Origin: a gamma proteobacterium symbiont of Ctena orbiculata
GTDB lineage: Bacteria > Pseudomonadota > Gammaproteobacteria > Chromatiales > Chromatiaceae
Assembly (NCBI GenBank): GCA_003094555.1
Contig: NATW01000127.1
Coordinates: 1-47,363 of the forward strand
DNA length: 47,363 nucleotides
Direction: 5' to 3'
Notes under the pieces: model-generated
What the model saw: the letters and a program-made list of their open reading frames with translations, nothing else
The model's database searches: none
Told to the model about the DNA's origin: nothing
Shown: positions 15,592 through 28,998 of the stretch, in pieces
Position numbering within the stretch: the first letter of the stretch is position 1
Layout: each line of letters begins with the position of its first letter
Position numbers and translations under genes: made by a program

Positions 15592-15656
15592 TCGCCGATA
15601 GGTTCGGTTGTTATCGATGCCGTGCAACAATTGTCAAAAGTGAATAGGGATCAGTG

Positions 15657-17882
15657 ATGCGGGAATCTATAGTGAAGGTTATAAGATGGATTCTGACAAC
15701 ACTGGTACTGTTTCTTCCCACTATCACATCAGCTGCAATCTGGCAGGATACCGACATCCCTGAGCTGGCGGCAAAGGGCGTCGATCTGTCATCCGTCTAC
15801 TATCGTAAACTTCAAGCGGACAGCTCCGCCTTGAGGCAACGGCTACTGCAGGCGCCTCTGCAGGAGAGCAGCTCATCGGCTGTGCAGCTCGAGCTGCCTC
15901 TGCCCTATGGTTCGATGCAGCGTTTCATGGTGGAAGAGTCGCCTGTGATGGCCGAATCATTGGCCCGGCGTTATCCCGAGATCCGCACCTACAGGGTCAG
16001 GGGGGTGGATAATCCCGCCAGCAGTGGACGTTTGGATCTGACGCCGGCCGGGTTTCATGCCATGCTGACCACACCGGCGGGTAGCGTGTTCATCGATCCG
16101 GATGGTGATGGCGGTTATCGGAGTTATTATAAGCGGGATTACGCAGCTGTTAAGGCCGGTCAAGCCTCACCCTTGGTCTGCATGCATAGAGATGGACAAG
16201 CACACAGCAAACAACTGTCCGCATTCGTTTCACAAATCCGTACAAGCGGAACTGTGAGTGGCGCCCATCGACGGATCTATCGCCTGGCCGTGGCGGCAAC
16301 CGGTGAATATAGCGCCTATTTTGGCGGTTCTGTCAGCGCTGCACTGGCGCAAATCGTTACCACCATCAATCGAGTGAATCAGGTCTACGGTCGCGATCTG
16401 GCTGTACAGTTTCAATTGGTGGGGAATAACGATCGCATCATCTTTACCGATTCTGATACAGATCCCTACACCCAGACTGCGGCCGGTATCAGTCTGATGC
16501 TGATCGAGAATCAAGAGCAACTCGATTTTATTTTAGGTGCTGACAACTATGATATCGGCATCCTGTTCGGGACGGTCGGTGGTGGTTTGGCCAGCGTGGG
16601 TTCGTTGTGTACCGTCTACAAAGCACAGGCCTATACCGGGACGCCGACGCCTGATAACGATGGTTTCTACATCGATTTTGTAGCTCATGAACTGGGTCAT
16701 CAACTGAATGCATCGCACTCGTTCAATGGAACGACGGCAAGTTGCGGTGGAGTGAACAGGGTTGCAAGTGCCGCCATGGAGCCAGGTAGCGGATCAACCA
16801 TCATGAGCTATGCGGGGATTTGCGCCGAGGAGGACCTGCAAGCCAATTCTGATGCAACCTTTCATGCCATCAGTATTCAGCAGATGAACGAGTTTATCAC
16901 TCAGGGTGAAGGTAATCAGTGCGGTCAGCTGACAATCACGGGAAACAACGCCCCAAGTGCGGATGCCGGCCAGGAGGGTGAGGATGAAGTCAGAATCATA
17001 CCTGCAGCCACCCCGTTCAGGTTGAGCGGTACGGCTGCCGATGTGGATGGGGATGCTCTCTCCTATCAATGGGATGAGATGGATGCGGGGGGGGTTAGTG
17101 GAGCCACAGACGCATCGACCATCGGTACTGACCTGCCCGATGCAAGCAATCCGTTGTTCAGGTCATTTCTTCCAAAACGAACGCCTGTGCGATATTTTCC
17201 GAGGTTGAGTCAATTGTTGACGCAGCAGGATGAGATCGGTGAGACCCTGCCTCAATCCAGCCGAACCCTCAACTTCAGACTTACTGTAAGGGATGGTGCG
17301 AGTGGTGTCGCTAACGATGACATCGCCATTCAGGTGGATGATAATCAGGGACCGTTCCGGATCACTGGCGGAGGTTTGAATCGTTCATCGACCTTTATGG
17401 GGGGTACTTCGCACACCCTGGAGTGGGCAACCGCAGGTACTGAAACGAGTTGTTCAAGCGTACAAGTTTCACTGCTTAGCCTGAGTCCCGGGAGTTCCCC
17501 TGAAACGTTTTGTGATATGCATGATAGCGGATACGAACAGTTATTCCTGGGTGAGTTTCCCAACGATGGCTTCGCAACTATTGAATTGCCAAATGTTTCT
17601 ATAGGGTATGCCAGGGTCATGCTCAGTTGTTCAGACAATCTCTTCTTTGCAGTCTCCGATGACACCCTGAGTATTGCAGGTTCGGAGGCTACCCTTGGCA
17701 ACGATTGCCAGCCACTGGACGGGGAGGACCTTGAGCACGGTGTGGTTTTCAGCGACGCTGGCGGTGCGGATAAGTTTGATAGTCCCGGTGGTGGTGGTCA
17801 ACTGGATTGGTTTCTATTCGCTATATTGTTGGTCGTTATCTTGCGGCCCCCGCTTTATATACCTGGGCAGCAACAAAGTTGA
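15657..17882 (+). CDS. Secreted reprolysin-like metzincin protease with C-terminal anchor
   Basis: A 741-residue zinc endopeptidase. An N-terminal signal peptide (WILTTLVLFLPTITSA) is followed by a propeptide-like region of about 180 residues. The metzincin catalytic domain has zinc histidines H344, H348 and H354 (HELGHQLNASH; asparagine replaces the usual glycine) and the Met-turn IMSYAG at M383. After it come a PKD-like segment (NNAPSADAGQEG, AADVDGDALSYQW), a beta-rich module, and a C-terminal tail of the form glycine-rich stretch (PGGGGQLDW) plus one hydrophobic helix (FLFAILLVVIL) plus Arg. That tail resembles a GlyGly-CTERM sorting signal, although the usual terminal arginine cluster is weak. 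ATG 15657 is preferred over the adjoining GTG 15654 because AGGGA lies at a proper distance. It follows gatB by 65 bases without obvious coupling. Confidence 0.82.
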   Translation: MRESIVKVIRWILTTLVLFLPTITSAAIWQDTDIPELAAKGVDLSSVYYRKLQADSSALRQRLLQAPLQESSSSAVQLELPLPYGSMQRFMVEESPVMAESLARRYPEIRTYRVRGVDNPASSGRLDLTPAGFHAMLTTPAGSVFIDPDGDGGYRSYYKRDYAAVKAGQASPLVCMHRDGQAHSKQLSAFVSQIRTSGTVSGAHRRIYRLAVAATGEYSAYFGGSVSAALAQIVTTINRVNQVYGRDLAVQFQLVGNNDRIIFTDSDTDPYTQTAAGISLMLIENQEQLDFILGADNYDIGILFGTVGGGLASVGSLCTVYKAQAYTGTPTPDNDGFYIDFVAHELGHQLNASHSFNGTTASCGGVNRVASAAMEPGSGSTIMSYAGICAEEDLQANSDATFHAISIQQMNEFITQGEGNQCGQLTITGNNAPSADAGQEGEDEVRIIPAATPFRLSGTAADVDGDALSYQWDEMDAGGVSGATDASTIGTDLPDASNPLFRSFLPKRTPVRYFPRLSQLLTQQDEIGETLPQSSRTLNFRLTVRDGASGVANDDIAIQVDDNQGPFRITGGGLNRSSTFMGGTSHTLEWATAGTETSCSSVQVSLLSLSPGSSPETFCDMHDSGYEQLFLGEFPNDGFATIELPNVSIGYARVMLSCSDNLFFAVSDDTLSIAGSEATLGNDCQPLDGEDLEHGVVFSDAGGADKFDSPGGGGQLDWFLFAILLVVILRPPLYIPGQQQS

Positions 17883-18230
17883 TACATGCTATTGGTGTTT
17901 TAGTCTGTATTCTTTTTTCTCATAACTATTTGCTATAGATCCAGTTCAAGTCTCACGAGCAATATCCCTTTCTTCTTTTATTTGTAATCTCAACCTCTTA
18001 CGGTTATTTAGGCTGATAGTTCAGTTGCTATAGACATCCCCTATAGAGTTGATCAGGTTTAGGTCTTGGACAAATAGTGGTGCCTGGTAAATAGTTTAAT
18101 CTAATGGTAGCTATCTCGAGGTTTGTGCGAGACGGCGTCAGTATTTCATTGCAAGCATGTCGCAACAGGCTGGAGGTTGCTAATTATCGTTTCAACAGTT
18201 GATCCACAAGTATGAGGAGAGGGGGTACAG
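17883..18230 (+). promoter_or_regulatory. Leader/promoter region of the cobalt permease gene
   Basis: A 348-base non-coding stretch that is AT-rich. Its central part (18030-18104) is the shared promoter block described separately. The 126 bases between that block and the start codon hold no recognised riboswitch, in particular nothing I can match to a cobalamin element. A GGAGGTT sequence at 18171-18177 is too far from the start to be its ribosome site. GAGGAGAGGGGG at 18214-18225 serves that role. Confidence 0.6.
18030..18104 (+). promoter_or_regulatory. Copy 1 of the duplicated promoter block with ATAG-N7-CTAT dyad
   Basis: The dyad ATAG-N7-CTAT (18030-18044) heads a 75-base block that recurs without gaps at 22382-22456; by eye 63 of 75 bases are identical. 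Within it TTGGAC (18066-18071) and TAAATA (18088-18093), 16 bases apart, are candidate -35 and -10 elements. The dyad is centred roughly 30 bases upstream of the -35. This position, together with the weak -10, fits a LysR-activated promoter. Target gene is the CbiM-like permease. The CynR-like LysR protein encoded at 21231-22214 is the natural candidate binder (inference). Confidence 0.72.
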
Positions 18231-18911
18231 ATGCATATTGAACCAGGCATTGTTGAGGGCGCAAAAATGGCACTTGGCGTTGTGACGGCTGCAGGCGCAA
18301 TTGGATATGCGGCCAAACTCACGTTGAGTACAATTAAACAAAACAGTGTCACTATACTGGCGATACGCAGCGCAATCACGACACTACTTGTGTTCTGCTT
18401 TTTTCAAGTATTACCGCACTATCCGGTAGGCGTATCCGAGGTACACTTTATTCTTGGTGCTACGCTGTTTCTAATCTTTGGTGCAGGTCCAGCAGCAATT
18501 GGCCTGGCAATGGGATTGCTTGCTCAAGGGTTACTATTTGCACCTGCGGACCTACCGCAATATGGTATGAATGTAACCTCTCTGTTAGTGCCGCTGCTGC
18601 TTGTTGATGTGTTGGCGCGCCGCCTGATCCCAGCGAAGACTGCGTATAAAGATGTTAAATATGCGCAGGCACTCGCGCTCTCCACAGCCTATCAGGGTGG
18701 GGTTGTCGCGTGGGTGGCATTCTGGGCATTCTATGGGAATGGATTCGGTGCGGAGAATCTTATTCAAGTAGGTACATTCAGTGTTGCTTATATGGCGGTT
18801 ATTGTAATAGAGCCACTGCTGGATCTTGCTATTCTTGCGACAGCAAAAAACCTGCACCAACTCAAGGACAACAGACTTTTTCATTCTCGTCTCTATCGAG
18901 CGGCTGCCTAA
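18231..18911 (+). CDS. CbiM-like cobalt permease component, stand-alone
   Basis: A 226-residue polytopic membrane protein of the CbiM/NikM (energy-coupling-factor cobalt/nickel permease) family. The protein opens MHIEPG, matching the family's MHI-x-x-G start in which the N-terminal methionine and His2 bind the metal. VSEVHFILGATLF (His72) and a LLAQGLLFAPADLPQYGMN segment follow, equivalent to the second metal-binding region and the LLLQALLFGHGG-type block of CbiM. About six membrane helices are visible. The usual partners CbiN, CbiQ and CbiO are absent nearby, so it either works alone or shares energising subunits encoded elsewhere. Because it has the same promoter block as the cobalt-dependent thiocyanate hydrolase genes, cobalt supply for that enzyme is the likely role. 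A strong terminator follows directly. Confidence 0.8.
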   Translation: MHIEPGIVEGAKMALGVVTAAGAIGYAAKLTLSTIKQNSVTILAIRSAITTLLVFCFFQVLPHYPVGVSEVHFILGATLFLIFGAGPAAIGLAMGLLAQGLLFAPADLPQYGMNVTSLLVPLLLVDVLARRLIPAKTAYKDVKYAQALALSTAYQGGVVAWVAFWAFYGNGFGAENLIQVGTFSVAYMAVIVIEPLLDLAILATAKNLHQLKDNRLFHSRLYRAAA

Positions 18912-18919
18912 ATGGTGAA

Positions 18920-18955
18920 CTGAGACCTCTACCAGGAAGAGGTCTCAGGTTTTTT
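18920..18955 (+). terminator. Intrinsic terminator after the CbiM-like gene
   Basis: A perfect 11-base stem, CTGAGACCTCT (18920-18930) with AGAGGTCTCAG (18938-18948), encloses a seven-base loop and is followed by six T (18950-18955). It lies eight bases after the stop codon, so the cobalt permease gene forms its own transcription unit. Confidence 0.93.
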
Positions 18956-19014
18956 GCCTGGTAGCTGGTTTGGAATGTTTTTTGGTGTAAGTGAGATTGT
19001 AGGTAGTCTGTGAA

Positions 19015-19836
19015 ATGGCTGCACGAGACCCACACAGATTCGTCAATGATCTCGATGATGAGGCAATCGATCGCCTCATAACCCGTCTGGAAAGCCGTGC
19101 AAAGGACGGTGTATTTACAAATCTCATCGAGAAATATTCATCCCAGTTGTTGCGTGCCAATCCCGCTCAGGTACTGGAGGTGGGTTGTGGTACTGGTGCG
19201 ATGATTCGCTCCTTCGTGCGCCGGGAAGAGTTTACAGGCAGAGCGGTTGGGGTTGATCAAAGTATTCCGTTCATCAAGGCGGCCAAAGCATTGGCTCAAC
19301 AAGAGCTTATCGATGAAAGGTTGGAATTTCGAACCGGTGATGCACATCATCTTGAATTCCCATCTGCAGGTTTTGATACCGTTATAGCAAATACCCTGAT
19401 AAGCCATGTTACCGACCCGGTGCGTGTGCTCGAAGAGATGGCAAGAGTGGTTAAGTCTGGTGGAACTGTGGTCATCTTCGACGGTGACTATTCATCCTTG
19501 ACCTATGCTTTTCCGGATTACGATTTCGGCTGTCAAATGGATAGCGCTCTTGCCAATGCATCTTTCTGTAATCCCAGGATTATGCGTGATTTGCCAGGGA
19601 TGTTGGCTGATATCGGTCTGCAACTCAAAACCGCCTGGGGGGATGCTGTGGTGGAGATCGGGAAGGCAAGCTATTTCAAGTCGTTTGCGGAAACCTATGC
19701 CCCCTATGTCTCGAGCTCCGGCCTGATGACAGCTGGTGAAGTTGAGGGTTGGTTGTCTGTGCAGCAACAGGCAATGGAGACTGAAACCTTCTTTGCAGCA
19801 TGCAACTACTACACATATCTCCTGGGTCACGCATGA
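19015..19836 (+). CDS. SAM-dependent methyltransferase (Methyltransf_11 type), substrate unknown
   Basis: A 273-residue class I methyltransferase. The SAM-binding motif I is VLEVGCGTGAMIRSF (about residues 58-72). The acidic ribose-binding residue follows in AVGVDQSIPFI, motif II is FDTVIANTLISHV, and motif III is LEEMARVVKSGGTVVIFDGDY. The fold resembles UbiE-like enzymes, but ubiquinone partners are not nearby. Placement between a cobalt permease and the thiocyanate hydrolase genes makes a role in handling thiol or thiocyanate methylation imaginable, but the sequence gives no direct evidence. The next gene begins about 35 bases downstream, so these two are probably co-transcribed. Confidence 0.83.
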   Translation: MAARDPHRFVNDLDDEAIDRLITRLESRAKDGVFTNLIEKYSSQLLRANPAQVLEVGCGTGAMIRSFVRREEFTGRAVGVDQSIPFIKAAKALAQQELIDERLEFRTGDAHHLEFPSAGFDTVIANTLISHVTDPVRVLEEMARVVKSGGTVVIFDGDYSSLTYAFPDYDFGCQMDSALANASFCNPRIMRDLPGMLADIGLQLKTAWGDAVVEIGKASYFKSFAETYAPYVSSSGLMTAGEVEGWLSVQQQAMETETFFAACNYYTYLLGHA

Positions 19837-19870
19837 GTGAATTGACAGTACTTCCTTGAGCGGAGGGCCT

Positions 19871-21172
19871 ATGCAAACCAATTTTAACCAACAGCAGCTG
19901 ACACTACCTGCCATCGCAAGTTCAGAAGTGGAGTTGCGCGCGTGCCTGCAATGCGACTATTGCACGCCTAACTGTCCCACTTATAAGTTATTGGGTGATG
20001 AGTATGACAGTTCCCGTGGACGCGTCTATTTGATCAAGGAACTACTTGAAAGCGAGGGCAAACCGCTGCAGAAGACGGTGGATTACATCGATCGATGTCT
20101 CTCCTGCCTTGCCTGCATGTCCACCTGTCCATCCAGTGTGCACTATCAGCACCTGCTGGATCATGCCCGGGAGAGTATTGAACTGAGGCACCAGCGAAAA
20201 CCGCTGGATCGGTTGTCACGCTGGTTATTGGCAAAGCTGCTGCCGTATCCGAATCGCTTTCGCCTGGCGATGCAGACGGCAAAAATCCTAAAGCCGGCAG
20301 CATCGATGCTGCCAAATCCGATTCGTGGCATGGTGGAGTACACACCAGATAGGTTGCCACCACCCAGCCCCAACGATGAACCTCAAGTATTTCCCGCAAA
20401 CGGCGAACGTAAGCGTCGCGTGGCATTGTTGACAGGATGTGCGCAACGAGCATTGAACACAGATATCAACGACGCAACGATTCGGATTCTCTGTCGGCAT
20501 GGCTGTGAGGTTGTTGTCGCGCAAGGCGCCGGGTGTTGTGGCGCCGTTACCCATCATATGGGTAAGTCAAAAGAGAGTCTGATGGCGGCGGCGAAGAACA
20601 TACGCGCCTGGACGAGCGAGATCGAGGGTGATGGTCTGGATGCGATTGTGATCAATACTAGCGGTTGTGGCACGGTCATTAAGGACTATGGATATATGTT
20701 CCGTAATCACTCACTGGCATCACAGGCAGAGACAATCGCAGGACTGGCCAAGGATGTTACCGAACTGCTTTCAGAGATGGAGTTGGATTACAGGGTCAAG
20801 CCGGGATTACGAATTTCCTACCATGCAACCTGCTCATTGCAATTTGGACAACGAGTGAGATTTACACCCAGGCGGTTACTGAAAACGGCGGGCTTCACGG
20901 TGCTTGAACCACGGGACTCGCATACCTGTTGTGGTGCTGCCGGGACCTACAATCTTTTACAGCCAGAGATCTCCACACGCCTGAAGGAGAATAAATTAAT
21001 GGCGCTTGAAGCGGGATCGCCCTCGGCTGTTGCTGCAGGCAATATTGGCTGCATGATGCACCTGATGTCGAGCTCCAGGATTCCAGTAGTACATACAGTG
21101 GAATTGCTGGACTGGGTGACAGGAGGGCCGATACCGTCATCTTTGAATGATATTCAAAGTGAAGCCGGATAG
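19871..21172 (+). CDS. GlcF-like (Fe-S)-binding protein with two CCG domains
   Basis: A 433-residue protein with the architecture of GlcF, the iron-sulfur subunit of glycolate oxidase, also shared by HdrD- and LutA-type proteins. Two 4Fe-4S motifs lie near the N-terminus (cysteines 25, 28, 31, 35 and 76, 79, 82, 86). Two cysteine-rich CCG domains follow, with GAGCCGAVTHH and DSHTCCGAAGTYN. An upstream TTG would add five residues, but GGAGGGCCT directly precedes the ATG at 19871, so I use that. The FAD partner subunits GlcD and GlcE are absent from the window. It may therefore form a complex with a distant partner or serve another electron-transfer step linked to the thiocyanate genes around it. 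It converges with the LysR gene. Confidence 0.82.
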   Translation: MQTNFNQQQLTLPAIASSEVELRACLQCDYCTPNCPTYKLLGDEYDSSRGRVYLIKELLESEGKPLQKTVDYIDRCLSCLACMSTCPSSVHYQHLLDHARESIELRHQRKPLDRLSRWLLAKLLPYPNRFRLAMQTAKILKPAASMLPNPIRGMVEYTPDRLPPPSPNDEPQVFPANGERKRRVALLTGCAQRALNTDINDATIRILCRHGCEVVVAQGAGCCGAVTHHMGKSKESLMAAAKNIRAWTSEIEGDGLDAIVINTSGCGTVIKDYGYMFRNHSLASQAETIAGLAKDVTELLSEMELDYRVKPGLRISYHATCSLQFGQRVRFTPRRLLKTAGFTVLEPRDSHTCCGAAGTYNLLQPEISTRLKENKLMALEAGSPSAVAAGNIGCMMHLMSSSRIPVVHTVELLDWVTGGPIPSSLNDIQSEAG

Positions 21173-21230
21173 TAGACGCAGCTAATGTTGTAGGCCTGTT
21201 TCAGGTCACTGGTTAGGTTTGTGTCAATAA

Positions 21231-22214
21231 TCAGTTGTGTGCGTTAGGTACACAGACTTCTGACATGGGACAGGGGCCAGTGCGCTTAACGGGTGTATCG
21301 TGACAACCGTCTGTGCCCCATTCAGCTGCCAGTTCCTTGAATGCAAGTGATGCAGGGCTCTTATATGAGTCCTGTCTGCTGATGAGTGTGATTGTATGGT
21401 GAGGTAGCTCTGGAATCAGCATAACTGGAAATATCTCGGTTTGCTGACAGGCGATTGTGTTGGGAAGAATGGTGGCAAGCCGTCCTAGCCGAAGAACCTC
21501 TATTATTGTGCTCAGGGAGTTTGTTTCGATTGCGATCTGCGGCTTAATGTCGTGTTCCAGACAATAGAGATCGATGTGTCTGCGTAATGCGAAGTCGCTA
21601 TTCAGGAGTGCCAGCGGCTCCTGTTCGAAAGAGTGCTGTCCCAAAGGAGTCTCCATGCCGGCATATTGGTGAGTTGACCCTACTGCCATATTGAGTGGTT
21701 CCATGAACAGGTGTTGTGTCTCTATGTATTCATAGTTAGCTGCAACGGTAAGGGTATTGGTAAACGCTATACCAATATCTATGTTCCCAGACAAGATGCC
21801 GCTTTCAATATCATCCTGTGGCATTTCGTAGGTGCCTACGGATATGCCGGGAAAGCGTTTATTGAATTTATCTATTAAAGGGGCGGCAAGATAGTCAGTG
21901 ATGGGAGTCATGCCCAGGCTGAGTGAGCCTCGGCTCAGGTCCTGAAGTTCCTGTATGGCCCGCTTCCCGGCGTCCAGTTCACCAAGGGCTCGGCGGGCAT
22001 AACTGATATAAACCTCCCCCGCGTCAGTAAGGTGCACACTACGGCCTGAACGATCCAACAACTGGGTCTCAAGAGACTCTTCCAACTGCTTGATTTGCTG
22101 GGAGAGAGTGGGCTGTGAGACAAATAGTGTTTCGGCCGCTCGGGTAAAGCTGTGATGTTCAGCAACAGCTAAAAGATAGCGTAGTGAACGAGGACACATG
22201 ATATTTCTATCCAT
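21231..22214 (-). CDS. LysR-family transcriptional regulator, CynR-like
   Basis: A 327-residue LysR-type regulator. The N-terminal winged HTH reads LRYLLAVAEHHSFTRAAETLFVSQPTLSQQIKQLEE in short phrases such as FTRAAETLFVSQP and LSQQIKQLEESL. This is the form typical of CynR and its relatives, which control cyanate metabolism. The ligand-binding domain begins about residue 92 (GSLSLGMTPITDYL). It is divergent from scnB and convergent with the GlcF-like gene. The start codon ATG at 22214 is preceded by AGGGG and is itself part of an ATAG-N7-CTAT dyad, which suggests autorepression. A second start at 22199 (MCPRSLRY) is possible. Its effector may be thiocyanate or cyanate (inference from neighbours). 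Confidence 0.9.
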   Translation of the reverse strand: MDRNIMCPRSLRYLLAVAEHHSFTRAAETLFVSQPTLSQQIKQLEESLETQLLDRSGRSVHLTDAGEVYISYARRALGELDAGKRAIQELQDLSRGSLSLGMTPITDYLAAPLIDKFNKRFPGISVGTYEMPQDDIESGILSGNIDIGIAFTNTLTVAANYEYIETQHLFMEPLNMAVGSTHQYAGMETPLGQHSFEQEPLALLNSDFALRRHIDLYCLEHDIKPQIAIETNSLSTIIEVLRLGRLATILPNTIACQQTEIFPVMLIPELPHHTITLISRQDSYKSPASLAFKELAAEWGTDGCHDTPVKRTGPCPMSEVCVPNAHN

Positions 22215-22227
22215 AGCTAACCCCTAT
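22213..22227. promoter_or_regulatory. ATAG-N7-CTAT dyad overlapping the CynR-like start codon
   Basis: ATAG (22213-22216), CTAACCC and CTAT (22224-22227) give the same interrupted dyad as in the two promoter blocks upstream of the cobalt permease and scnB. The first bases of the site are part of the regulator's start codon. A bound protein would therefore cover the translation start and downstream of the promoter, in line with negative autoregulation. Confidence 0.6.
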
Positions 22228-22631
22228 GGAAGTTATAAAAAAAGCGGATATCCCTTATTCCACCATGGTGAGACTTAGTGTAGACCAATAACTGAATTTG
22301 GAAGTGTATTTCGTAAAAAAATATTTCTTAGACTTTAAATTGGCAATTGTATGTAAAACCGTTAGTCAAGTATCTCACTTCATAGTCATCGCCTATAGAG
22401 CTAATCAGAATTAGGTCTTGGACAAATATTGTGACCTGGTAAATAGTTTGATTTAACACGATAGATAGGCGAGTGCTTGGTAATTTAAGCATTACTTAAG
22501 AAACCATTTTGCATGTGGTAAAGCCACGCATCATTGATTACTGAAAGACCAAATATTTATATGAGAAAAAAAGACATTAGGTAGATAAAGGTATGCTTAT
22601 TTAAAAACCTAATAGAGGAGTTTACGCAACT
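22215..22631 (+). promoter_or_regulatory. Divergent control region between the CynR-like gene and scnB
   Basis: A 417-base AT-rich intergenic region. It contains, from left to right, the autoregulatory dyad, a perfect ten-base palindrome CACCATGGTG (22262-22271), the second copy of the shared promoter block (22382-22456), and a leader of about 175 bases before scnB. The leader carries a small hairpin (GTGG/CCAC around 22515-22528) and ends with a strong GAGGAG ribosome site at about 22615-22620. Confidence 0.6.
22382..22456 (+). promoter_or_regulatory. Copy 2 of the duplicated promoter block, driving scnB
   Basis: The dyad ATAG-N7-CTAT (22382-22396) is followed by the same block as at 18030-18104. 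The candidate elements are TTGGAC (22418-22423) and TAAATA (22440-22445), separated by 16 bases. Conservation is highest across the segment from TTAGGTCTTGGACAAATA through CCTGGTAAATAGTTT, that is, dyad, -35 and -10, which argues for function rather than chance. Transcripts would have a leader of about 180 bases before scnB. Confidence 0.72.
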
Positions 22632-23063
22632 ATGTCATCAACCATCAGACGAAAAGTGATGAAACACCTGGAGATCGTTAAACAACTCCAGCCGTCTCTG
22701 CATCAGGAAACCCACGCACCATCTCCAGATCAGGTGGATAACGAACACTATAGGGCCTATACACGTATGGCGCATGATGTCGGCGGTGAACCTGATGTTC
22801 CGATTACATGGGAAGAGAAAGAAGAAGAGGTGTGGGAGCACAATACCTTCGTCACTTGCGAGGTGCTGGCATGGCGCGGTGTCTGGAACGCCGAGGAGCG
22901 GCGACGCAGACAGAACGTGGATGTAGGACAGACAGCTTATTTGGGACTGCCCTATTACGGTCGTTGGCTACTGACCGCTGCAAGAATTCTGGTTGACAAG
23001 CAATACATCACAGTCACCGAGTTATCCGACAAGATAGACGAGGTCAGAAAACGCTATGAGTAA
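22632..23063 (+). CDS. scnB: Thiocyanate hydrolase beta subunit ScnB
   Basis: Thiocyanate hydrolase converts thiocyanate and water to carbonyl sulfide and ammonia. ScnB corresponds to the N-terminal half of the nitrile hydratase beta subunit. The 143-residue product shows the acidic PITWEEKEEEVWEHNTF stretch, the WRGVWNAEERRRRQN segment with arginines at 90-93 (arginines in this area contact the metal centre in the family), and the YLGLPYYGRWLLTAARIL helix. It is a little shorter than the 157 residues I recall for Thiobacillus thioparus. Start ATG 22632 follows a GAGGAG ribosome site by eleven bases. The last codons overlap scnA by eight bases, so the subunits are coupled in translation. Confidence 0.88.
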   Translation: MSSTIRRKVMKHLEIVKQLQPSLHQETHAPSPDQVDNEHYRAYTRMAHDVGGEPDVPITWEEKEEEVWEHNTFVTCEVLAWRGVWNAEERRRRQNVDVGQTAYLGLPYYGRWLLTAARILVDKQYITVTELSDKIDEVRKRYE

Positions 23064-23424
23064 ACCACATTATGATCGAGAGCATCACGTAAAGAAGGCG
23101 ACAGGCGTCGGTGATCCACAATGTTTTAAGAGCGAAGCGGGTAAACCCAAGTTCAAGGTGGGTGACAAGGTGCGGGTCAGGGATCTACCGGATATTTTTT
23201 ATACCCGCACGCAAGTCTATACACGTGGCGCGCCTGCAACTGTTGCCGAACTGGTCTATGAAAGCCCTGCGCCGGAAGACGAGGCGTGGGACAACACGGA
23301 TAAAGTCGTCTGGTTTTACAGCCTTGTTTTCAAGCAAACGGATCTCTGGCCGGACTATCCCGATGCATTCTCAAGCGACACGGTTGAGACCGAACTGCCT
23401 GAGCGTTGGCTTGAGCCACTGTAG
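23056..23424 (+). CDS. scnA: Thiocyanate hydrolase alpha subunit ScnA
   Basis: A 122-residue protein equivalent to the C-terminal, SH3-barrel-like half of the nitrile hydratase beta subunit. The family phrases are FKVGDKVRVRDLPD, FYTRTQVYTRGAPATV and VVWFYSLVFKQTDLWPDYP, ending in the LPERWLEPL strand. In nitrile hydratases these two halves are one chain. Their separation into two genes in the order scnB-scnA is characteristic of thiocyanate hydrolase. The start codon lies inside the end of scnB. A gap of 59 bases with a GAGGA ribosome site leads to scnC. Confidence 0.9.
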   Translation: MSKPHYDREHHVKKATGVGDPQCFKSEAGKPKFKVGDKVRVRDLPDIFYTRTQVYTRGAPATVAELVYESPAPEDEAWDNTDKVVWFYSLVFKQTDLWPDYPDAFSSDTVETELPERWLEPL

Positions 23425-23483
23425 GTGTGCATGCGACATACAGCACGAAGACGTTAGGGTAAAGAATTAAAGAGGATAAGCTA

Positions 23484-24179
23484 ATGGCGGAGAAACACAA
23501 ACCTGCACCAATGGTCGATGAGGTCAGCGAGTTCGAGGTGCTCGAAATCGCCGTTCGTGAACTGGCGATCGAGAAAGGCCTGTTCAGCGCTGAAGACCAC
23601 CAAAGTTGGACCGAGTATATGCATACCCTTGGTCCTCTTCCCGCGGCACGTATGGTGGCAAAGGCTTGGTTGGACCCGGAATACAAGAAGCTTTGTATAG
23701 AGGATGGTGTCAAGGCCAGCCTCGATGTGGGGATTGATTGGGTCAACAGTATGCCATCTCACTTCGGCACCCCCAGTGACTACTGCAATCTACGTGTGCT
23801 CGAGGATACGCCAACCTTAAAACACGTGGTCGTATGCACACTCTGTTCATGTTACCCGCGTCCCATTCTCGGGCAGTCGCCTGAATGGTATCGGACACCC
23901 AACTATCGACGTCGCCTGGTGCGTTGGCCACGTCAGGTACTTGCGGAATTTGGCTTGCAACTGCCCGATGAAGTAGAAGTCAGGGTGGAGGACTCGAATC
24001 AGAAATCACGTTTCATTGTTCTACCGGTTCGCCCCGAAGGGACCGAGGGATGGAGCGAAGATCAGTTGGCCGAGATCGTAACCCGGGACTGTTTGATCGG
24101 TGTAGCCCTGCCAAAACCCGGTAAGACTGCCAATGACCCGCGTCCAATACGTCCCGCAGTCAATCCATATGGTCATTAG
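23484..24179 (+). CDS. scnC: Thiocyanate hydrolase gamma (catalytic, cobalt-binding) subunit ScnC
   Basis: The catalytic subunit, equivalent to the nitrile hydratase alpha subunit. The 231-residue product contains VCTLCSC (Cys118, Cys121, Cys123), the claw that binds the metal through three cysteines and two backbone amides. Two of these cysteines are oxidised to sulfinate and sulfenate in the mature enzyme. Threonine in CTLCSC, instead of serine, is the signature of the cobalt rather than iron form. The blocks preceding and following (NLRVLEDTP, YPRPILGQSPEWYR, RRLVRWPRQVLAEFG) match the family. It is the third of three subunit genes, followed nine bases later by the maturation factor. Confidence 0.92.
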   Translation: MAEKHKPAPMVDEVSEFEVLEIAVRELAIEKGLFSAEDHQSWTEYMHTLGPLPAARMVAKAWLDPEYKKLCIEDGVKASLDVGIDWVNSMPSHFGTPSDYCNLRVLEDTPTLKHVVVCTLCSCYPRPILGQSPEWYRTPNYRRRLVRWPRQVLAEFGLQLPDEVEVRVEDSNQKSRFIVLPVRPEGTEGWSEDQLAEIVTRDCLIGVALPKPGKTANDPRPIRPAVNPYGH

Positions 24180-24187
24180 GAAATCCC

Positions 24188-24643
24188 ATGACTGAGATAA
24201 ATCCTAAATATTTCGAACTCGATAAAGAGATGCGCGATCGCCAACTCGATGGCTCATCACCTGTTTCACTTTTGGAAGAGGTTAAAAGAAAAGGAAGAGT
24301 CTGGGATGACCTGTGTGAACAGTATGGCGTGGACAACCCGGACCCTCCCTGGCGGATCACCCTGGAAGCGACCTGCGATATGCTCTCCGGCGGTTATTGG
24401 GAGACCTTCAACGTCTGTAAACCCAAGCATGATCGTAATCCGCAAGAGGAGCAGAAAAAACTCGATGCTGTGGAGCGCCGTTGGGAAGAGGATCAACTGG
24501 TCAATGAGCACTATACCGAAGTGCCGTTCCCGGAAAGTCAGTTATTGGCACTGGCCCATACCTTGATCCGGCGTGGGTTATTTGATGAGGATGAATTGGA
24601 GCACCGTATGGAAGAGGTTGAGCGACGTCTGAACAGCGCCTGA
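24188..24643 (+). CDS. P15K-like cobalt-insertion factor for thiocyanate hydrolase
   Basis: A 151-residue acidic, helical protein that begins eight bases after the scnC stop. A protein of about 15 kDa (P15K) encoded at exactly this place in Thiobacillus thioparus is needed to load cobalt into thiocyanate hydrolase, and the length and position agree. The WRITLEATCDMLSGGYWE and VPFPESQLLALAHTLIRRGLFDEDEL segments resemble the short activator and N-terminal helical parts of nitrile hydratase subunits. It is probably a maturation chaperone that hands the metal to ScnC. The assignment leans partly on synteny, so the specific name is moderately sure. Confidence 0.82.
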   Translation: MTEINPKYFELDKEMRDRQLDGSSPVSLLEEVKRKGRVWDDLCEQYGVDNPDPPWRITLEATCDMLSGGYWETFNVCKPKHDRNPQEEQKKLDAVERRWEEDQLVNEHYTEVPFPESQLLALAHTLIRRGLFDEDELEHRMEEVERRLNSA

Positions 24644-24728: not shown

Positions 24729-25556
24729 ATGTCTATACGCGGAGTCCGCATCAAGATAGAAGAGCTTAGCCATCGCTATACCTCGAAAAGCCCTATCACT
24801 TTTGACAAGGTTAATCTGGAAGCGAGGCAGGGCGAGATACTCGCTATTATCGGGCGCTCCGGTTGTGGCAAATCAACCCTGTTGCATATTCTGGCAGGCC
24901 TGTTGAAACCGACGGATGGTTCCGTTCGTCTTGATGATACCCTGGTGACAGCGCCTTCGCCGCAATGGGTCATGATGTTTCAGGCGCCCCATCTTTTTCC
25001 CTGGATGAAGGTTTCGCAAAATGTCGGTATCGGCCTCCATTTTGCTGGCTGGGATGATATGCGAATGCGTGAGCGTGTCGATGAATCACTTAGTTTGGTC
25101 GATCTTCAGGATTACGCCGACAACAACGTCCAGGATCTGTCGGGCGGTCAGCAACAACGGGTTGCACTCGCACGCTCGCTGGTGATGGAGCCTGAATTAT
25201 TGTTGCTGGACGAACCCTTCTCCGCGCTCGATGCCTTCACCCGTTCATCCTTACAAAAGGATGTTCGATCCATCGCCAAACGCCTCGGTTTCAACGTTGT
25301 GATTGTCACCCACGATATCGATGAAGCGGTATTGATGGCTGATCGGGCGCTGATCATGGCAGGTTCTCCCGGCAAGATCTACGACGAGCTAGAAGTCAAT
25401 CTCCCCGACCCGCGAGAAAGACAGGATCCGGCTGTACAGGCGATGCGCGCACGCCTGATGGAAGCCTTTAAAAGTGCCGCCAACGAACACCCGAGTTCCT
25501 CCAGCAAGGATGCTGGCGATGATTCCAGTCCACATAGCGTCACGCAGCACGCCTGA
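24729..25556 (+). CDS. ABC importer ATP-binding protein (nitrate/sulfonate/taurine type)
   Basis: The 275-residue ATPase of a TauB/SsuB/NrtD-type importer. Walker A is GRSGCGKST (residues 42-50), the Q-loop is in MFQAPHLFPW, the signature is LSGGQQQRVALARSL, Walker B is LLLLDEPFSALD, and the switch histidine is in IVTHDIDEA. A serine-rich tail after about residue 245 is not part of the catalytic core. It opens a series with a substrate-binding protein and two permease genes. Directly after the thiocyanate hydrolase genes, thiocyanate or cyanate uptake is the most economical guess. No terminator was seen in the 85-base gap from P15K. Confidence 0.93.
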   Translation: MSIRGVRIKIEELSHRYTSKSPITFDKVNLEARQGEILAIIGRSGCGKSTLLHILAGLLKPTDGSVRLDDTLVTAPSPQWVMMFQAPHLFPWMKVSQNVGIGLHFAGWDDMRMRERVDESLSLVDLQDYADNNVQDLSGGQQQRVALARSLVMEPELLLLDEPFSALDAFTRSSLQKDVRSIAKRLGFNVVIVTHDIDEAVLMADRALIMAGSPGKIYDELEVNLPDPRERQDPAVQAMRARLMEAFKSAANEHPSSSSKDAGDDSSPHSVTQHA

Positions 25557-25603
25557 CCCTACATAAGTCGGAATATCCGATTACCTAACGGAGGATACCG
25601 AAG

Positions 25604-26896
25604 ATGAATAAGTCTAAGCAGATAGTCGATAAGTATGGAGATGGTATTGACGATCCAGAACTTGTCTTGGATTATGATCCGCTTTTCAAGAATGTCTTGG
25701 GTAGTGGCGTCGACAGGCGCGATTTTCTGAAGATGGGTAGTCTTGCGGCGATGAGCAGCCTGATACCCTCTGCGGCAACGTTCGCCCAGGAGAAGAAGTG
25801 GGATCCGGTGGTGCGTATCGGATATATACCGATCACCGATGCTGCGGCTCTGCTGGTCGCCCATGAGTTGGGCTTTTTCAAAAAAGAGGGGATCGATTCG
25901 GTTCGCCCAACCCTGATCCGTGGTTGGTCACCCCTGGTGGAGGCCTTTGCCTCACATCGATTCAACCTGACCCACATGCTTATCCCGATACCGATCTGGA
26001 TGCGTTACAACAATAAATATCCGTTGAAGATAACTGCCTGGGATCACACCAATGGTTCCGCGATCATCGTTCACAAGGACAGTGGAATCAACTCGCCCAA
26101 GGATTTTGGAGGTAAGCAGTTTGCCGTACCTTACTGGTATTCGATTCATAATATCGTTTCCCAGAAGATCATGAAGGAGGCGGGTATAACCCCAGTGATA
26201 CGGCCGCAAACCGCCAAGCTGGGTCCCAATGAATGTAACTTCCTGGTTTTGAATCCACCCGATATGCCACCCGCGCTTGCAGCCAAGTCGATTGACGGTT
26301 ACTGCGTGGCCGAGCCGTTCAATGCCCTTGGCGAGATCAAGGCAGGTGGCAAGGTGCTGCGATTCACCGGTGATGTCTGGAAGGGCCATCCCTGCTGTGT
26401 GGTGGTTATGCATGAGGCGGACGCGATGGATCCGGATCGGGCGGCATGGGCACAGGGTGTTCACAATGCAATCATCGCCGCACAGATTCATCTCGGAGAG
26501 AACAGAGAGGAGATGGCTCAGCTGCTCTCTCGCGATGGAAAGAAATATCTGCCGTTCCCGAAGAAGATCATCGAGCGGGCAATGCTGTTCTACGATCCCG
26601 CCTACTACAACAATCCGGTAGCTATCAAACATCCGGAATGGGGTATGGATAGAATTAACTTCCAAAGCTGGCCCTATCGTTCGGCCACTGAACTGGTCGT
26701 CTCCGATCTGAAAGAGACCGTGCTAACGGGAGATGCCGGGTTCCTCGATAATCTCACACCGCAGCATGTGGCTGACGACCTGGTTAACTACACCTTTGTC
26801 AAGAATGCCTTGGAAGCGAATCCAAAGTGGAAAAACGATCCCAGCGTGCCCAAGTCCGGCGACCCCTACTCCAGAGTCGAGGTGGTTGAACTGTGA
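25604..26896 (+). CDS. ABC importer substrate-binding protein with Tat signal
   Basis: A 430-residue NMT1/NrtA-SsuA-like solute-binding protein. A 37-residue leader precedes a twin-arginine signal (RRDFLKMG at residues 38-45, hydrophobic core AAMSSLIPSAATFA). The mature start EKKWDPVVRIGYIPITDAAALLVAHELG is the typical first lobe, given here only as landmarks RIGYIPITDAAA and AHELGFFKKEGI. A long N-terminal leader before the Tat motif is also seen in nitrate and thiocyanate-associated relatives. The last codon overlaps the first permease by four bases. The ligand cannot be read from sequence; an inorganic anion such as thiocyanate, cyanate or nitrate is expected for the family. Confidence 0.9.
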   Translation: MNKSKQIVDKYGDGIDDPELVLDYDPLFKNVLGSGVDRRDFLKMGSLAAMSSLIPSAATFAQEKKWDPVVRIGYIPITDAAALLVAHELGFFKKEGIDSVRPTLIRGWSPLVEAFASHRFNLTHMLIPIPIWMRYNNKYPLKITAWDHTNGSAIIVHKDSGINSPKDFGGKQFAVPYWYSIHNIVSQKIMKEAGITPVIRPQTAKLGPNECNFLVLNPPDMPPALAAKSIDGYCVAEPFNALGEIKAGGKVLRFTGDVWKGHPCCVVVMHEADAMDPDRAAWAQGVHNAIIAAQIHLGENREEMAQLLSRDGKKYLPFPKKIIERAMLFYDPAYYNNPVAIKHPEWGMDRINFQSWPYRSATELVVSDLKETVLTGDAGFLDNLTPQHVADDLVNYTFVKNALEANPKWKNDPSVPKSGDPYSRVEVVEL

Positions 26897-27720
26897 GTGG
26901 AGATGCCGCATCTTTCAAGGTCGGCGAATCCAGGTCCTACCGCGCCCTGAAATCATCAGGGCGTGGTTTGACAAATTTCTTCGGTGGGTTGGCGGTTCTA
27001 TTTACCTTGTGGTGGATTGGCGGCTACTTCATTGCCACCAATCCATCCACGCAACACTTCGCCGCCTTTGGACCAATCCCCACCTTCAAGGCATTCCCAG
27101 AGTTATGGTCCGCGGGGACGATTCAGAATGCGATGGCCGCCAGTGGCTATCGTTTGGGTATTGGACTGCTCATTGCGATCTGTATCGGAGTACCGGTTGG
27201 TATCCTCATGGGGCGCAGTAAACGCTTCCGTGAGATCAGCAATTCACCGTTTCAACTGTTACGTATGATCAGTCCTTTAGCGTGGATGCCACTCGCAGTG
27301 GTGGTATTCGCCACCTGGAACCAATCGATCATCTTCCTTATTGCGATCGCATCCCTCTGGCCGGTGGCCTTTGCAACCGCAGCTGGTTTGGCGAAAGTGG
27401 ATCCGGCCTGGTTCAAGGTGGCCCGCAACCTGGGTGCCAAACCCATACATCTACTGACCAAGATTATTCTGCCGGCGATCAGCTTTGATGTCTTTACGGG
27501 TATCCGGCTGGCATTGGGGGTAGCCTGGATAGTACTTGTGCCGGCGGAGTATTTAGGCGTGACCTCAGGTCTTGGTTACTCCATAGAGGATGCCAGAGAA
27601 ACCCTCTCTTATCACCACCTCACCGCAATCGTATTGGTTATCGGGGCTATTGGGTACTTGCTTGACAGTGCCTGCGTACTGCTGATCAATCGATTCAGCT
27701 GGCACAGAGGTGAGTCGTGA
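26893..27720 (+). CDS. ABC importer permease 1 (NrtB/SsuC-like)
   Basis: A 275-residue membrane permease with six hydrophobic segments, the BPD_transp_1 family, and the EAA-like loop VARNLGAKPIHLLTKIILPA. Start is GTG at 26893, inside the stop of the binding-protein gene. The product is closely similar over nearly its whole length to the permease encoded just downstream: both contain GYRLGxGLLIAICIGVPxGILMGRS and SNSPFQLLRMISPL. One difference sits in the first of the two conserved loops, WMPLAVVV here and WEPIAVIV in copy 2. Confidence 0.93.
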   Translation: MSGDAASFKVGESRSYRALKSSGRGLTNFFGGLAVLFTLWWIGGYFIATNPSTQHFAAFGPIPTFKAFPELWSAGTIQNAMAASGYRLGIGLLIAICIGVPVGILMGRSKRFREISNSPFQLLRMISPLAWMPLAVVVFATWNQSIIFLIAIASLWPVAFATAAGLAKVDPAWFKVARNLGAKPIHLLTKIILPAISFDVFTGIRLALGVAWIVLVPAEYLGVTSGLGYSIEDARETLSYHHLTAIVLVIGAIGYLLDSACVLLINRFSWHRGES

Positions 27721-27790
27721 TTGATGGAATAAGAAAATTGCATGTGCGGCTGTCCTCCATGATCGTCCCTGATCGAGAGGTTGCAAGACA

Positions 27791-28639
27791 ATGAGCAATG
27801 ACACTGCGCCGATCGGGGTGAATGTGCTGAACGCCGGGACTGGTGAATCCATGTCAACGCGTGTTTTGAAGTCTTCATGGCGGGGGCTGTCGAATTTTTT
27901 TATCGGTATCGCGATACTGTTTGTTATCTGGTGGTTTGGTATCTTTCTTATCTCCTCCAATCCCTCCACCGAACACTTTGCCGATTTCGGACCGATACCG
28001 GCGTTAAAGGCGATGCCGGTATTGTGGGAGGAGGGAACCATTCAGAGCGCGATACTCTCCAGTGGCTACCGTCTGGGTAGCGGTTTGCTGATCGCCATTT
28101 GCATCGGTGTGCCTATCGGTATATTAATGGGGCGCAGTAGAAGATTCCGCGAGTTGAGTAATTCGCCATTTCAGTTGCTGCGCATGATCAGTCCGCTGTC
28201 ATGGGAGCCGATCGCGGTTATCGTATTCGCCACCTGGAATCAGGCGATAATCTTTCTTATAGCGATCGCATCGGTGTGGCCGGTGGCATTCGCGACTGCG
28301 GCAGGCCTGGCCAAGGTGGACCCTGCGTGGTTCAAGGTAGCGCGAAATCTAGGCGCCAAACCCTGGCATATCGTAACCCGGATTATCGTACCGGCGATCA
28401 CGTTCGATGTGCTCACCGGAATACGTCTTGCGCTTGGTGTGGCATGGATCGTAATTGTCCCTGCGGAATTTCTCGGCGTGACTTCAGGTCTAGGCTACTC
28501 GATTCAGGACGCCCGTGAGGGTCTCTCATATGACCATCTCATGGCTTGGGTTCTCATCATAGGCGTTATTGGCTACGTCCTCGATAGCTCCTGTGTTTTG
28601 TTAATCAAACGTTTCAGTTGGCATCGTGGAGATGAATGA
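27791..28639 (+). CDS. ABC importer permease 2, tandem paralogue of permease 1
   Basis: A 282-residue permease of the same family and topology as its upstream neighbour, 70 bases away. The middle part from GYRLGSGLLIAIC to WFKVARNLGAKPWH is nearly identical to copy 1, while the N-termini differ. The ISPLSWEPIAVIV segment carries a glutamate where copy 1 has methionine. With one ATPase and one binding protein, the pair most simply forms a heterodimeric pore. Alternatively the copies could serve two importers that share an ATPase. The tandem similarity indicates an old duplication with divergence. Confidence 0.92.
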   Translation: MSNDTAPIGVNVLNAGTGESMSTRVLKSSWRGLSNFFIGIAILFVIWWFGIFLISSNPSTEHFADFGPIPALKAMPVLWEEGTIQSAILSSGYRLGSGLLIAICIGVPIGILMGRSRRFRELSNSPFQLLRMISPLSWEPIAVIVFATWNQAIIFLIAIASVWPVAFATAAGLAKVDPAWFKVARNLGAKPWHIVTRIIVPAITFDVLTGIRLALGVAWIVIVPAEFLGVTSGLGYSIQDAREGLSYDHLMAWVLIIGVIGYVLDSSCVLLIKRFSWHRGDE

Positions 28640-28728
28640 TATCTAGTGGCTTTTACTGCGTTGATTCAACCTGAAACGCTTGATGATTAGTATGTGTCGT
28701 GTGCTGGTATGGACGCGAGGTAAAAGTG

Positions 28729-28998
28729 ATGAGCAGATTACGTTTCACCGAAGAGCAGATCATGGCGGTTTTGAAGGAGGCCGAGGAGTCAGGTGAGAAG
28801 ATAACTGCAATATGTAGCAGGCATGGTATCTCTGATGCAACATTTTATAAATGGCGGACGAAATATGCAGATCAATCAGCCAATGATTCGAAACGATTGA
28901 AGCAGCTCGAGGAGGAGAATCAGCGTCTGCGCTCCCTTGTTGCCGATCTCACATTACGTAATCAAGCGTTAAAGAGAGTGGTCTCGAAGAAGTGGTGA
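28729..28998 (+). mobile_element. Orphan IS3-family OrfA (transposase N-terminal HTH protein)
   Basis: An 89-residue protein with the IS3-family OrfA pattern: FTEEQIMAVLKEAEE, the HTH phrase ICSRHGISDATFYKWRTKY, and a leucine-zipper-like tail (LKQLEEENQRLRSLVADL) ending LKRVVSKKW, where OrfB would normally follow by frameshift. No OrfB, DDE domain or terminal inverted repeats were recognised, so the element is a remnant or the HTH protein has been retained alone. The reading frame is intact, with GAGG seven bases ahead of the ATG at 28729. It sits inside the thiocyanate/sulfur island between the importer and the DsrE-like gene. Confidence 0.8.

Follow-up and report, generated by a model that had tools for sequence, protein, structure and literature searches.

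Genes and control blocks of the island

The window analysed here is the whole 47,363-nucleotide stretch of contig NATW01000127.1, from a gammaproteobacterial symbiont of the clam Ctena orbiculata, and it carries an island in which a cbiM-type cobalt importer gene, a gene for a LysR-type regulator resembling CynR and the scn genes for thiocyanate hydrolase, an enzyme described as containing cobalt (PMC6504805, PMC5744179), stand together (Table 1). Our subject is a pair of 75-base blocks, one preceding cbiM and one preceding scnB, along with a further copy of the dyad ATAG-N7-CTAT at the start of the regulator gene. Judging by sequence comparison, the blocks are very probably operator-promoters of one regulon under the neighbouring CynR-like protein, coupling thiocyanate hydrolase to cobalt import. 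A preliminary description of this DNA had proposed a single regulon spanning the cobalt permease, the scn operon and the regulator itself, and the comparison with relatives supports it, through the dyads kept in 10 of 10 genomes of the genus, the dyads at 63 of 68 regulator starts and the unrelated cobalt importers found behind the same block.

The two blocks align without gaps, with 63 of 75 positions identical (84%), and form the longest direct repeat within 17000-23500, their copies 4.35 kb apart. Exact ATAG-N7-CTAT dyads number three in the window (at 18030, 22213 and 22382), the one at 22213 lying on the start of the CynR-like gene, as the preliminary description had it. That description also assigned to each block the boxes TTGGAC and TAAATA; the dyads stand, and the likely promoter is one base off, TGGACA-N17-AATAGT at 18067-18095 and 22419-22447. 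Dyads with at most one mismatch occur 19 times in the window versus 11.3 expected by chance, a weak count that is uninformative alone, and the case therefore rests on context and conservation. Loose patterns over the whole genome, with 178 matches versus 362 for the reversed control, are mostly chance.

Table 1. Features of the thiocyanate hydrolase island, in window coordinates
Feature	Coordinates	Strand	Remarks
Control block of cbiM	18030..18104	+	dyad 18030-18044; conserved AT...AA...GTCTTGGA register; TGGACA 18067-18072, N17, AATAGT 18090-18095
Control block of scn operon	22382..22456	+	dyad 22382-22396; TGGACA 22419-22424, N17, AATAGT 22442-22447
Third dyad	22213..22227		overlaps the Shine-Dalgarno region and the start codon of the LysR gene (its first two bases); presumed autoregulatory operator
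CynR-like LysR regulator, 327 amino acids	21231..22214	-	NF008416, 367.6 bits (cut-off 277)
cbiM-type cobalt importer S component, solitary	18231..18911	+	PF01891
Terminator-like hairpin with T run, after cbiM	18920..18948	+	1 found versus 4.3 expected in region shuffles
S-adenosylmethionine (SAM) methyltransferase gene	19015..19836	+	between cbiM and regulator in all 9 genus loci spanning it (window included)
GlcF-like iron-sulfur oxidoreductase	19856..21172	+	with a block copy of its own in some relatives but none in the window
scnB, thiocyanate hydrolase subunit	22632..23063	+	nitrile hydratase (NHase) beta N-terminal, PF21006
scnA, thiocyanate hydrolase subunit	23056..23424	+	NHase beta C-terminal, PF02211
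scnC, thiocyanate hydrolase gamma	23484..24179	+	TIGR03887, 389.1 bits (cut-off 291.45)
151-amino-acid protein	24188..24643	+	occupies the position of the accessory protein P15K; no family match
NitT/TauT-like ABC transporter genes (ATPase, binding protein, two permeases)	24729..28639	+	downstream of scn

The enzyme is identified as thiocyanate hydrolase by a gamma subunit scoring above the cut-off of its model, with split NHase beta genes alongside; the small protein that follows scnC may, by its position, be P15K. The CbiM of the window is called solitary because a Pfam search found no CbiQ in the genome, which has four CbiM-like genes in all, the other three on other contigs. Since the terminator-like hairpin stands between cbiM and the methyltransferase gene, transcription from the cbiM block of the window may not extend into the methyltransferase and GlcF-like genes. 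We know of no role of GlcF-like iron-sulfur oxidoreductases in thiocyanate use.

Conservation of the block and of the start-codon dyad

The eight nearest named relatives comprise five Candidatus Thiodiazotropha and three Ctena clam symbionts. Within the genus, the block is present in 10 of the 21 genomes searched (own included) and absent in 11, and the same 10 have scnC and a CynR-like LysR gene while the same 11 have neither, a co-occurrence in 21 of 21; one more genome, G056, has scnC and the regulator and is outside the 21 searched for the block. The preliminary description had named loss of the block before scnB, in relatives that keep the regulator, as an observation that would speak against it; among the genus genomes searched for the block, all 10 with the regulator have it. 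The scnB dyad and the dyad at the regulator start are intact in each of these 10, and the cbiM block is intact in all nine loci that reach that far. In the 10 aligned regulator-scnB intergenic regions the block is almost invariant, with diverged DNA around it, and in eight genus loci block positions 1-45 are 96% identical pairwise versus 40-56% for the flanks. Across the class, the regulator is found at E<=1e-60 in 10 of 369 genomes; the eight outside the genus all have scnC, and so do the remaining two (G000 and G010).

Seven of the 10 genus genomes have an additional block copy away from cbiM and scn. It precedes the gene for an outer-membrane protein of 364-502 amino acids in six loci (L121, L122, L123, L124, L127, L129), and in the seventh (L120) the contig ends before any target gene. 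The 487-amino-acid version of this protein has an Alginate_exp match just below the cut-off, and a search of the symbiont's own genome with the 487-amino-acid porin of the relatives gave no match, a search that shows little. Weaker sites (27-32 bits in the matrix described below) precede an OprD-type porin in four genus loci (assigned by Pfam for the L121 copy) and a GlcF-like gene in three. In two genus genomes a cyanase-like gene, absent from the window, separates cbiM from the methyltransferase gene (L119 11807-12271, Pfam-assigned, and L124 8621-9064).

The wider sample of loci consists of the best 80 of 375 relatives in GTDB species genomes, a choice biased to near ones; 76 of them could be used for the stretch upstream of scnB, four being dropped for having no ScnB hit or fewer than 400 nucleotides upstream. 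An exact dyad lies 50-400 nucleotides upstream of scnB in 54 of the 76, and in 46 of the 68 outside the genus, whereas 56 control patterns with altered spacers or tetramers reach at most 5 of 68, and other 350-nucleotide windows of the same loci 53 of 3257. What follows the dyad is also fixed in register, with AT at positions 23-24, AA at 28-29 and AGTCTTGGA at 33-41, and among 31 loci thinned from 45 outside the genus, block positions 1-45 are 66% identical pairwise versus 25-32% for the flanks. Past the block, the best mean fit to TATAAT in the 31 thinned loci is at position 61 (3.29 of 6; the next, 3.03, is at position 46), and the commonest promoter reads TGGACA or TGGAAA, 17 bases, then AATAGT or CATAGT, a form listed for both window blocks. 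The dyad, which by its sequence contains T-N11-A, would thus be centred at about -65, a position resting on a transcription start placed from TGGACA-N17-AATAGT alone.

A 45-column matrix was built from 45 scnB blocks outside the genus (L033 was omitted, its picked dyad resembling chance). In the window it scores 54.4 bits at 22382, 44.7 at 18030 and 8.4 at 22213, where the dyad is kept and most of the remaining block is lost; the next-best window position has -8.2 bits, and the best among 20 million random positions 12.2. A motif search of the genome, which the preliminary description had proposed, finds the first block at just two places, 18030 and 22382, in the 4.07 Mb assembly. Two copies 4.35 kb apart and 84% identical could have come from a recent duplication of promoter DNA, or from a mobile or repeated element, with no regulator in common. 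The mobile-repeat version was dropped on the count of two places in the assembly, and as the 45-base pattern is kept in other genera and classes between nearly random flanks, and stands at different genes in different lineages, we hold an origin of this kind to be extremely improbable.

The dyad at the regulator start could be followed in 68 of the 80 loci, from alpha-, beta- and gammaproteobacteria (in the other 12 the regulator was below 45% identity, incomplete or too close to the end of a contig). It occupies exactly -13 to +2 of the ATG in 63 of the 68, without mismatch in 44 and with one mismatch in 19, and 58 of the 63 are at the unshifted codon; the start codon was picked among in-frame ATGs within eight codons for the best dyad, which slightly favours the result. 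Where scnB is divergent and close (24 loci outside the genus), the start dyad belongs in 20 to a full block leading to scnB. Of the other 36 loci outside the genus, 26 carry a full block where the regulator gene begins, and 21 of these blocks lead to a cobalt/nickel importer gene (15 CbiM, 5 HupE/UreJ, 1 NicO), the remaining five to genes of other kinds. Within the genus, decay has reduced the start copy to 8-29 bits, and a full scn copy lies 169-175 bases away, which suggests that a once shared control region was duplicated. At the regulator start of eight loci from other families of the class the matrix gives 17-60 bits, though some of these may duplicate genomes of the 80-locus set. Genus loci do not support a strict helical phasing of the two dyads between regulator and scnB, whose distance ranges over 169-175 bases.

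The dyad at 22213 could alternatively reflect nothing but the translation start, with its Shine-Dalgarno sequence and ATG, or an RNA hairpin, since a GGGG or GGA stretch lies in the dyad just upstream of the ATG and a short hairpin is possible, judged by sequence. The same 15 bases, however, occur in the promoters of scnB and cbiM, where no regulator gene starts, and loci such as L014, L040 and L041 keep an exact dyad at the regulator start with the rest of the neighbouring block gone, which argues for a role in controlling the regulator itself. We therefore consider it very unlikely that this dyad reflects only the translation start or a hairpin, and continue to regard it as a presumed operator.

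Affinity of the regulator and its probable operator to CynR

The regulator has the LysR-type architecture, an N-terminal HTH_1 domain (PF00126) and a C-terminal substrate-binding domain (PF03466). It exceeds the cut-off of the CynR model NF008416, while the OxyR subfamily model gives 120 bits against a cut-off of 329; it is about 43% identical to E. coli CynR and 29% to OxyR, and among solved structures only E. coli CynR effector domains (2hxr, 3hfu) match it at E<=1e-20. For E. coli CynR, the relevant passage of PMC5002191 gives three predicted ATAA-n7-TTAT sites at -66, -44 and -34, with cyanate-dependent activation and cyanate-independent autorepression, and for OxyR it gives ATAG-n7-CTAT sites at -66, -44 and -35.

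The preliminary description had observed that ATAG-N7-CTAT is also the OxyR form and might be a motif of the LysR class rather than one specific to CynR. The register beyond the dyad answers in favour of a CynR-type layout, as the matrix scores 14.6 bits on E. coli cynR-cynT (L151:1201), at the reported first CynR site, and at best -10.7 bits on oxyR-oxyS; none of 20 million random positions reaches 14.6 bits, and the cynR-cynT score of columns 16-45 alone is equalled by 391 of 20 million. The half-site itself remains ATAG, as in OxyR, and not ATAA. The E. coli control region aligns gaplessly to the scn block, positions 16-45 included, both having a 15-bp dyad near -65 (counted here from a predicted start) and a conserved downstream part, and E. 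coli cynR is likewise divergent from its target, with the first site close to the regulator start. The systems differ in that the targets here are scn and cobalt importers, with cyanase in some loci only, in that the operator here overlaps the start codon, and in that several separate blocks occur per genome.

That another LysR protein with ATAG half-sites, above all OxyR, binds the dyads, and that the genes belong to an oxidative-stress response, would agree with the OxyR sites near -66 described in PMC5002191 and with the recognition helix VSQPTLS, common to the regulator and E. coli OxyR. This reading was dropped when the matrix picked cynR-cynT and not oxyR-oxyS, and the closer identity of the regulator to CynR and the fixing of the dyad at the start codon of CynR-like genes also stand against it. 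OxyR differs besides in its subfamily and has no link to scn. We judge the reading very unlikely, and the neighbouring CynR-like protein remains the preferred candidate.

Among 67 regulators of the locus sample the recognition helix reads SQPT in 56, SQPS in seven and SQPA in four, E. coli CynR having SQPA and OxyR SQPT. Any dependence of the half-site on this residue looks weak, as an exact dyad precedes the regulator start by 67 and 71 bases in two SQPA loci (L067, L076), and an SQPT regulator can also go with ATAA half-sites (L038). Mixed half-sites such as ATAA-N7-CTAT are found in some other loci. None of the four SQPA loci (L060, L061, L067, L076) carries an exact dyad before scnB, and L060 and L076 have a degenerate site of 9-11 bits before scnB and a DsrE-like gene.

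Genes behind the block and a model of their control

Outside the genus, 72 loci contain 130 sites of at least 20 bits (genus loci L003-L010 were omitted from the site scan, as the same stretches enter as L119-L129). Taking as target the first open frame with a match that starts 60-650 nucleotides downstream, a rule by which single assignments may be wrong, 55 sites precede scnB, 18 CbiM, 18 GlcF-like genes (17 of them at just 32-37% identity), six porins of the 487-amino-acid type, five cyanase, five HupE/UreJ, four ScnB paralogues, three CbtA and three formate/nitrite-type transporters; NicO, DUF4198, methyltransferase, ScnA, P15K-like, DsrE-like, cysteine-dioxygenase-like and hydrolase-like genes are single cases, and five sites have no assigned target. 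The blocks before a second ScnB-like gene (50-56% identity) are at L040 816, L043 7151, L046 4700 and L053 7272.

The strongest hint of function is that unrelated importers stand behind the same block. In 28 of the 72 loci a site of at least 20 bits precedes a cobalt/nickel importer gene of one of five families (CbiM, HupE, NicO, CbtA, DUF4198), confirmed by Pfam for eight examples; DUF4198 we take to be an importer part. The published scn clusters of Thiobacillus thioparus and Thioalkalivibrio thiocyanodenitrificans resemble the island in combining scn genes with those for an ABC transporter, a DsrE-like protein and SQR, and it had already been pointed out that cobalt uptake genes, different ones in each species, lie near scn there (PMC5328954). 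The passages of that paper on these clusters mention no scn regulator, operator or co-regulation, the word 'regulator' there concerning thiocyanate dehydrogenase clusters (PMC5328954). A description of the regulon was not found in the literature searched, which left most subscription papers outside, and the regulon thus appears to be undescribed there, the mechanism itself being of a known kind.

The comparison shows the sequences, how far they are conserved and which genes they accompany. On this we base a model in which the CynR-like protein would bind the ATAG-N7-CTAT dyad centred near -65 and, when an inducer is present, probably thiocyanate or cyanate, would also contact the conserved half beside the -35 box and activate the promoters of the scn operon and of cbiM. 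On the third dyad, at its own start codon, it may limit its own synthesis. The outcome would be a cobalt import that rises together with the cobalt enzyme.

LysR proteins can also repress, and the regulator might instead hold down scn and cbiM until an inducer relieves them, the block then being an operator and not an activation site; it agrees with this that the conserved GTCTTGGA part overlaps the -35 box. However, a dyad centred near -65 with a conserved second part beside -35 is the layout of activated LysR promoters as presented in PMC5002191, and the -35 box, TGGACA or TGGAAA, is just a partial match to consensus, and we find repression decidedly improbable and activation the better account.

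Several points weigh against the model of a single activated regulon, beginning with the bias of the locus sample to near relatives. An exact dyad is missing from the stretch before scnB in 22 of the 68 loci outside the genus, of which 11 have a site of at least 20 bits before scnB, five have one of 9-19 bits and six have none (L024, L059, L061, L063, L067, L072), and the start-codon dyad is missing in 5 of 68. The co-occurrence of block, regulator and scnC within the genus is not independent evidence, because all three are in one island, and the G012 regulator is split over two contig pieces, one of which contains two stop codons. Where ATAA-N7-TTAT is reported for CynR, the three window sites and 46 of the 68 scnB upstream stretches outside the genus have ATAG-N7-CTAT. 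The importer families concerned can transport nickel as well. The promoter scan that lists TGGACA-N17-AATAGT returned five promoter-like sites versus 7.7 expected in shuffles; as this is no excess, support for the promoters comes from conservation and not from the scan. Finally, binding, activation, autorepression, the inducer and the start sites are what we infer from the sequences.

A broader proposition, which we regard as evenly balanced, is that across alpha-, beta- and gammaproteobacteria it would be a thiocyanate (or cyanate) sensor, not a metal sensor, that switches on cobalt import, that lineages changing their importer (CbiM, HupE/UreJ, NicO, CbtA, DUF4198) would each have put the new one under the same operator, and that the regulator's own operator copy stayed fused to its start codon. 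The point of interest is the proposed coupling of cobalt import to the substrate of an enzyme, as bacteria may match metal import to an enzyme in this way, and the loci offer a natural series of unrelated importers brought under one switch. Thiocyanate hydrolase, the cobalt enzyme of thiocyanate degraders and clam symbionts, thereby acquires a candidate regulator, a precisely defined putative operator and a set of genes that may be co-regulated with it, among which the GlcF-like protein, the methyltransferase and the outer-membrane porins are candidates of unclear role.

Two further genes were noticed in this part of the window. One is a lone IS3-type transposase OrfA-like gene (28699-28998), downstream of the ABC transporter genes, which is found at the same place in the G001 and G012 loci at 70-73% identity, a persistence odd for a mobile gene. 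The other is a reprolysin-like metallopeptidase gene (15654-17882) beside the island, with counterparts of 68-82% identity in eight of the nine other genomes retrieved from the genus.

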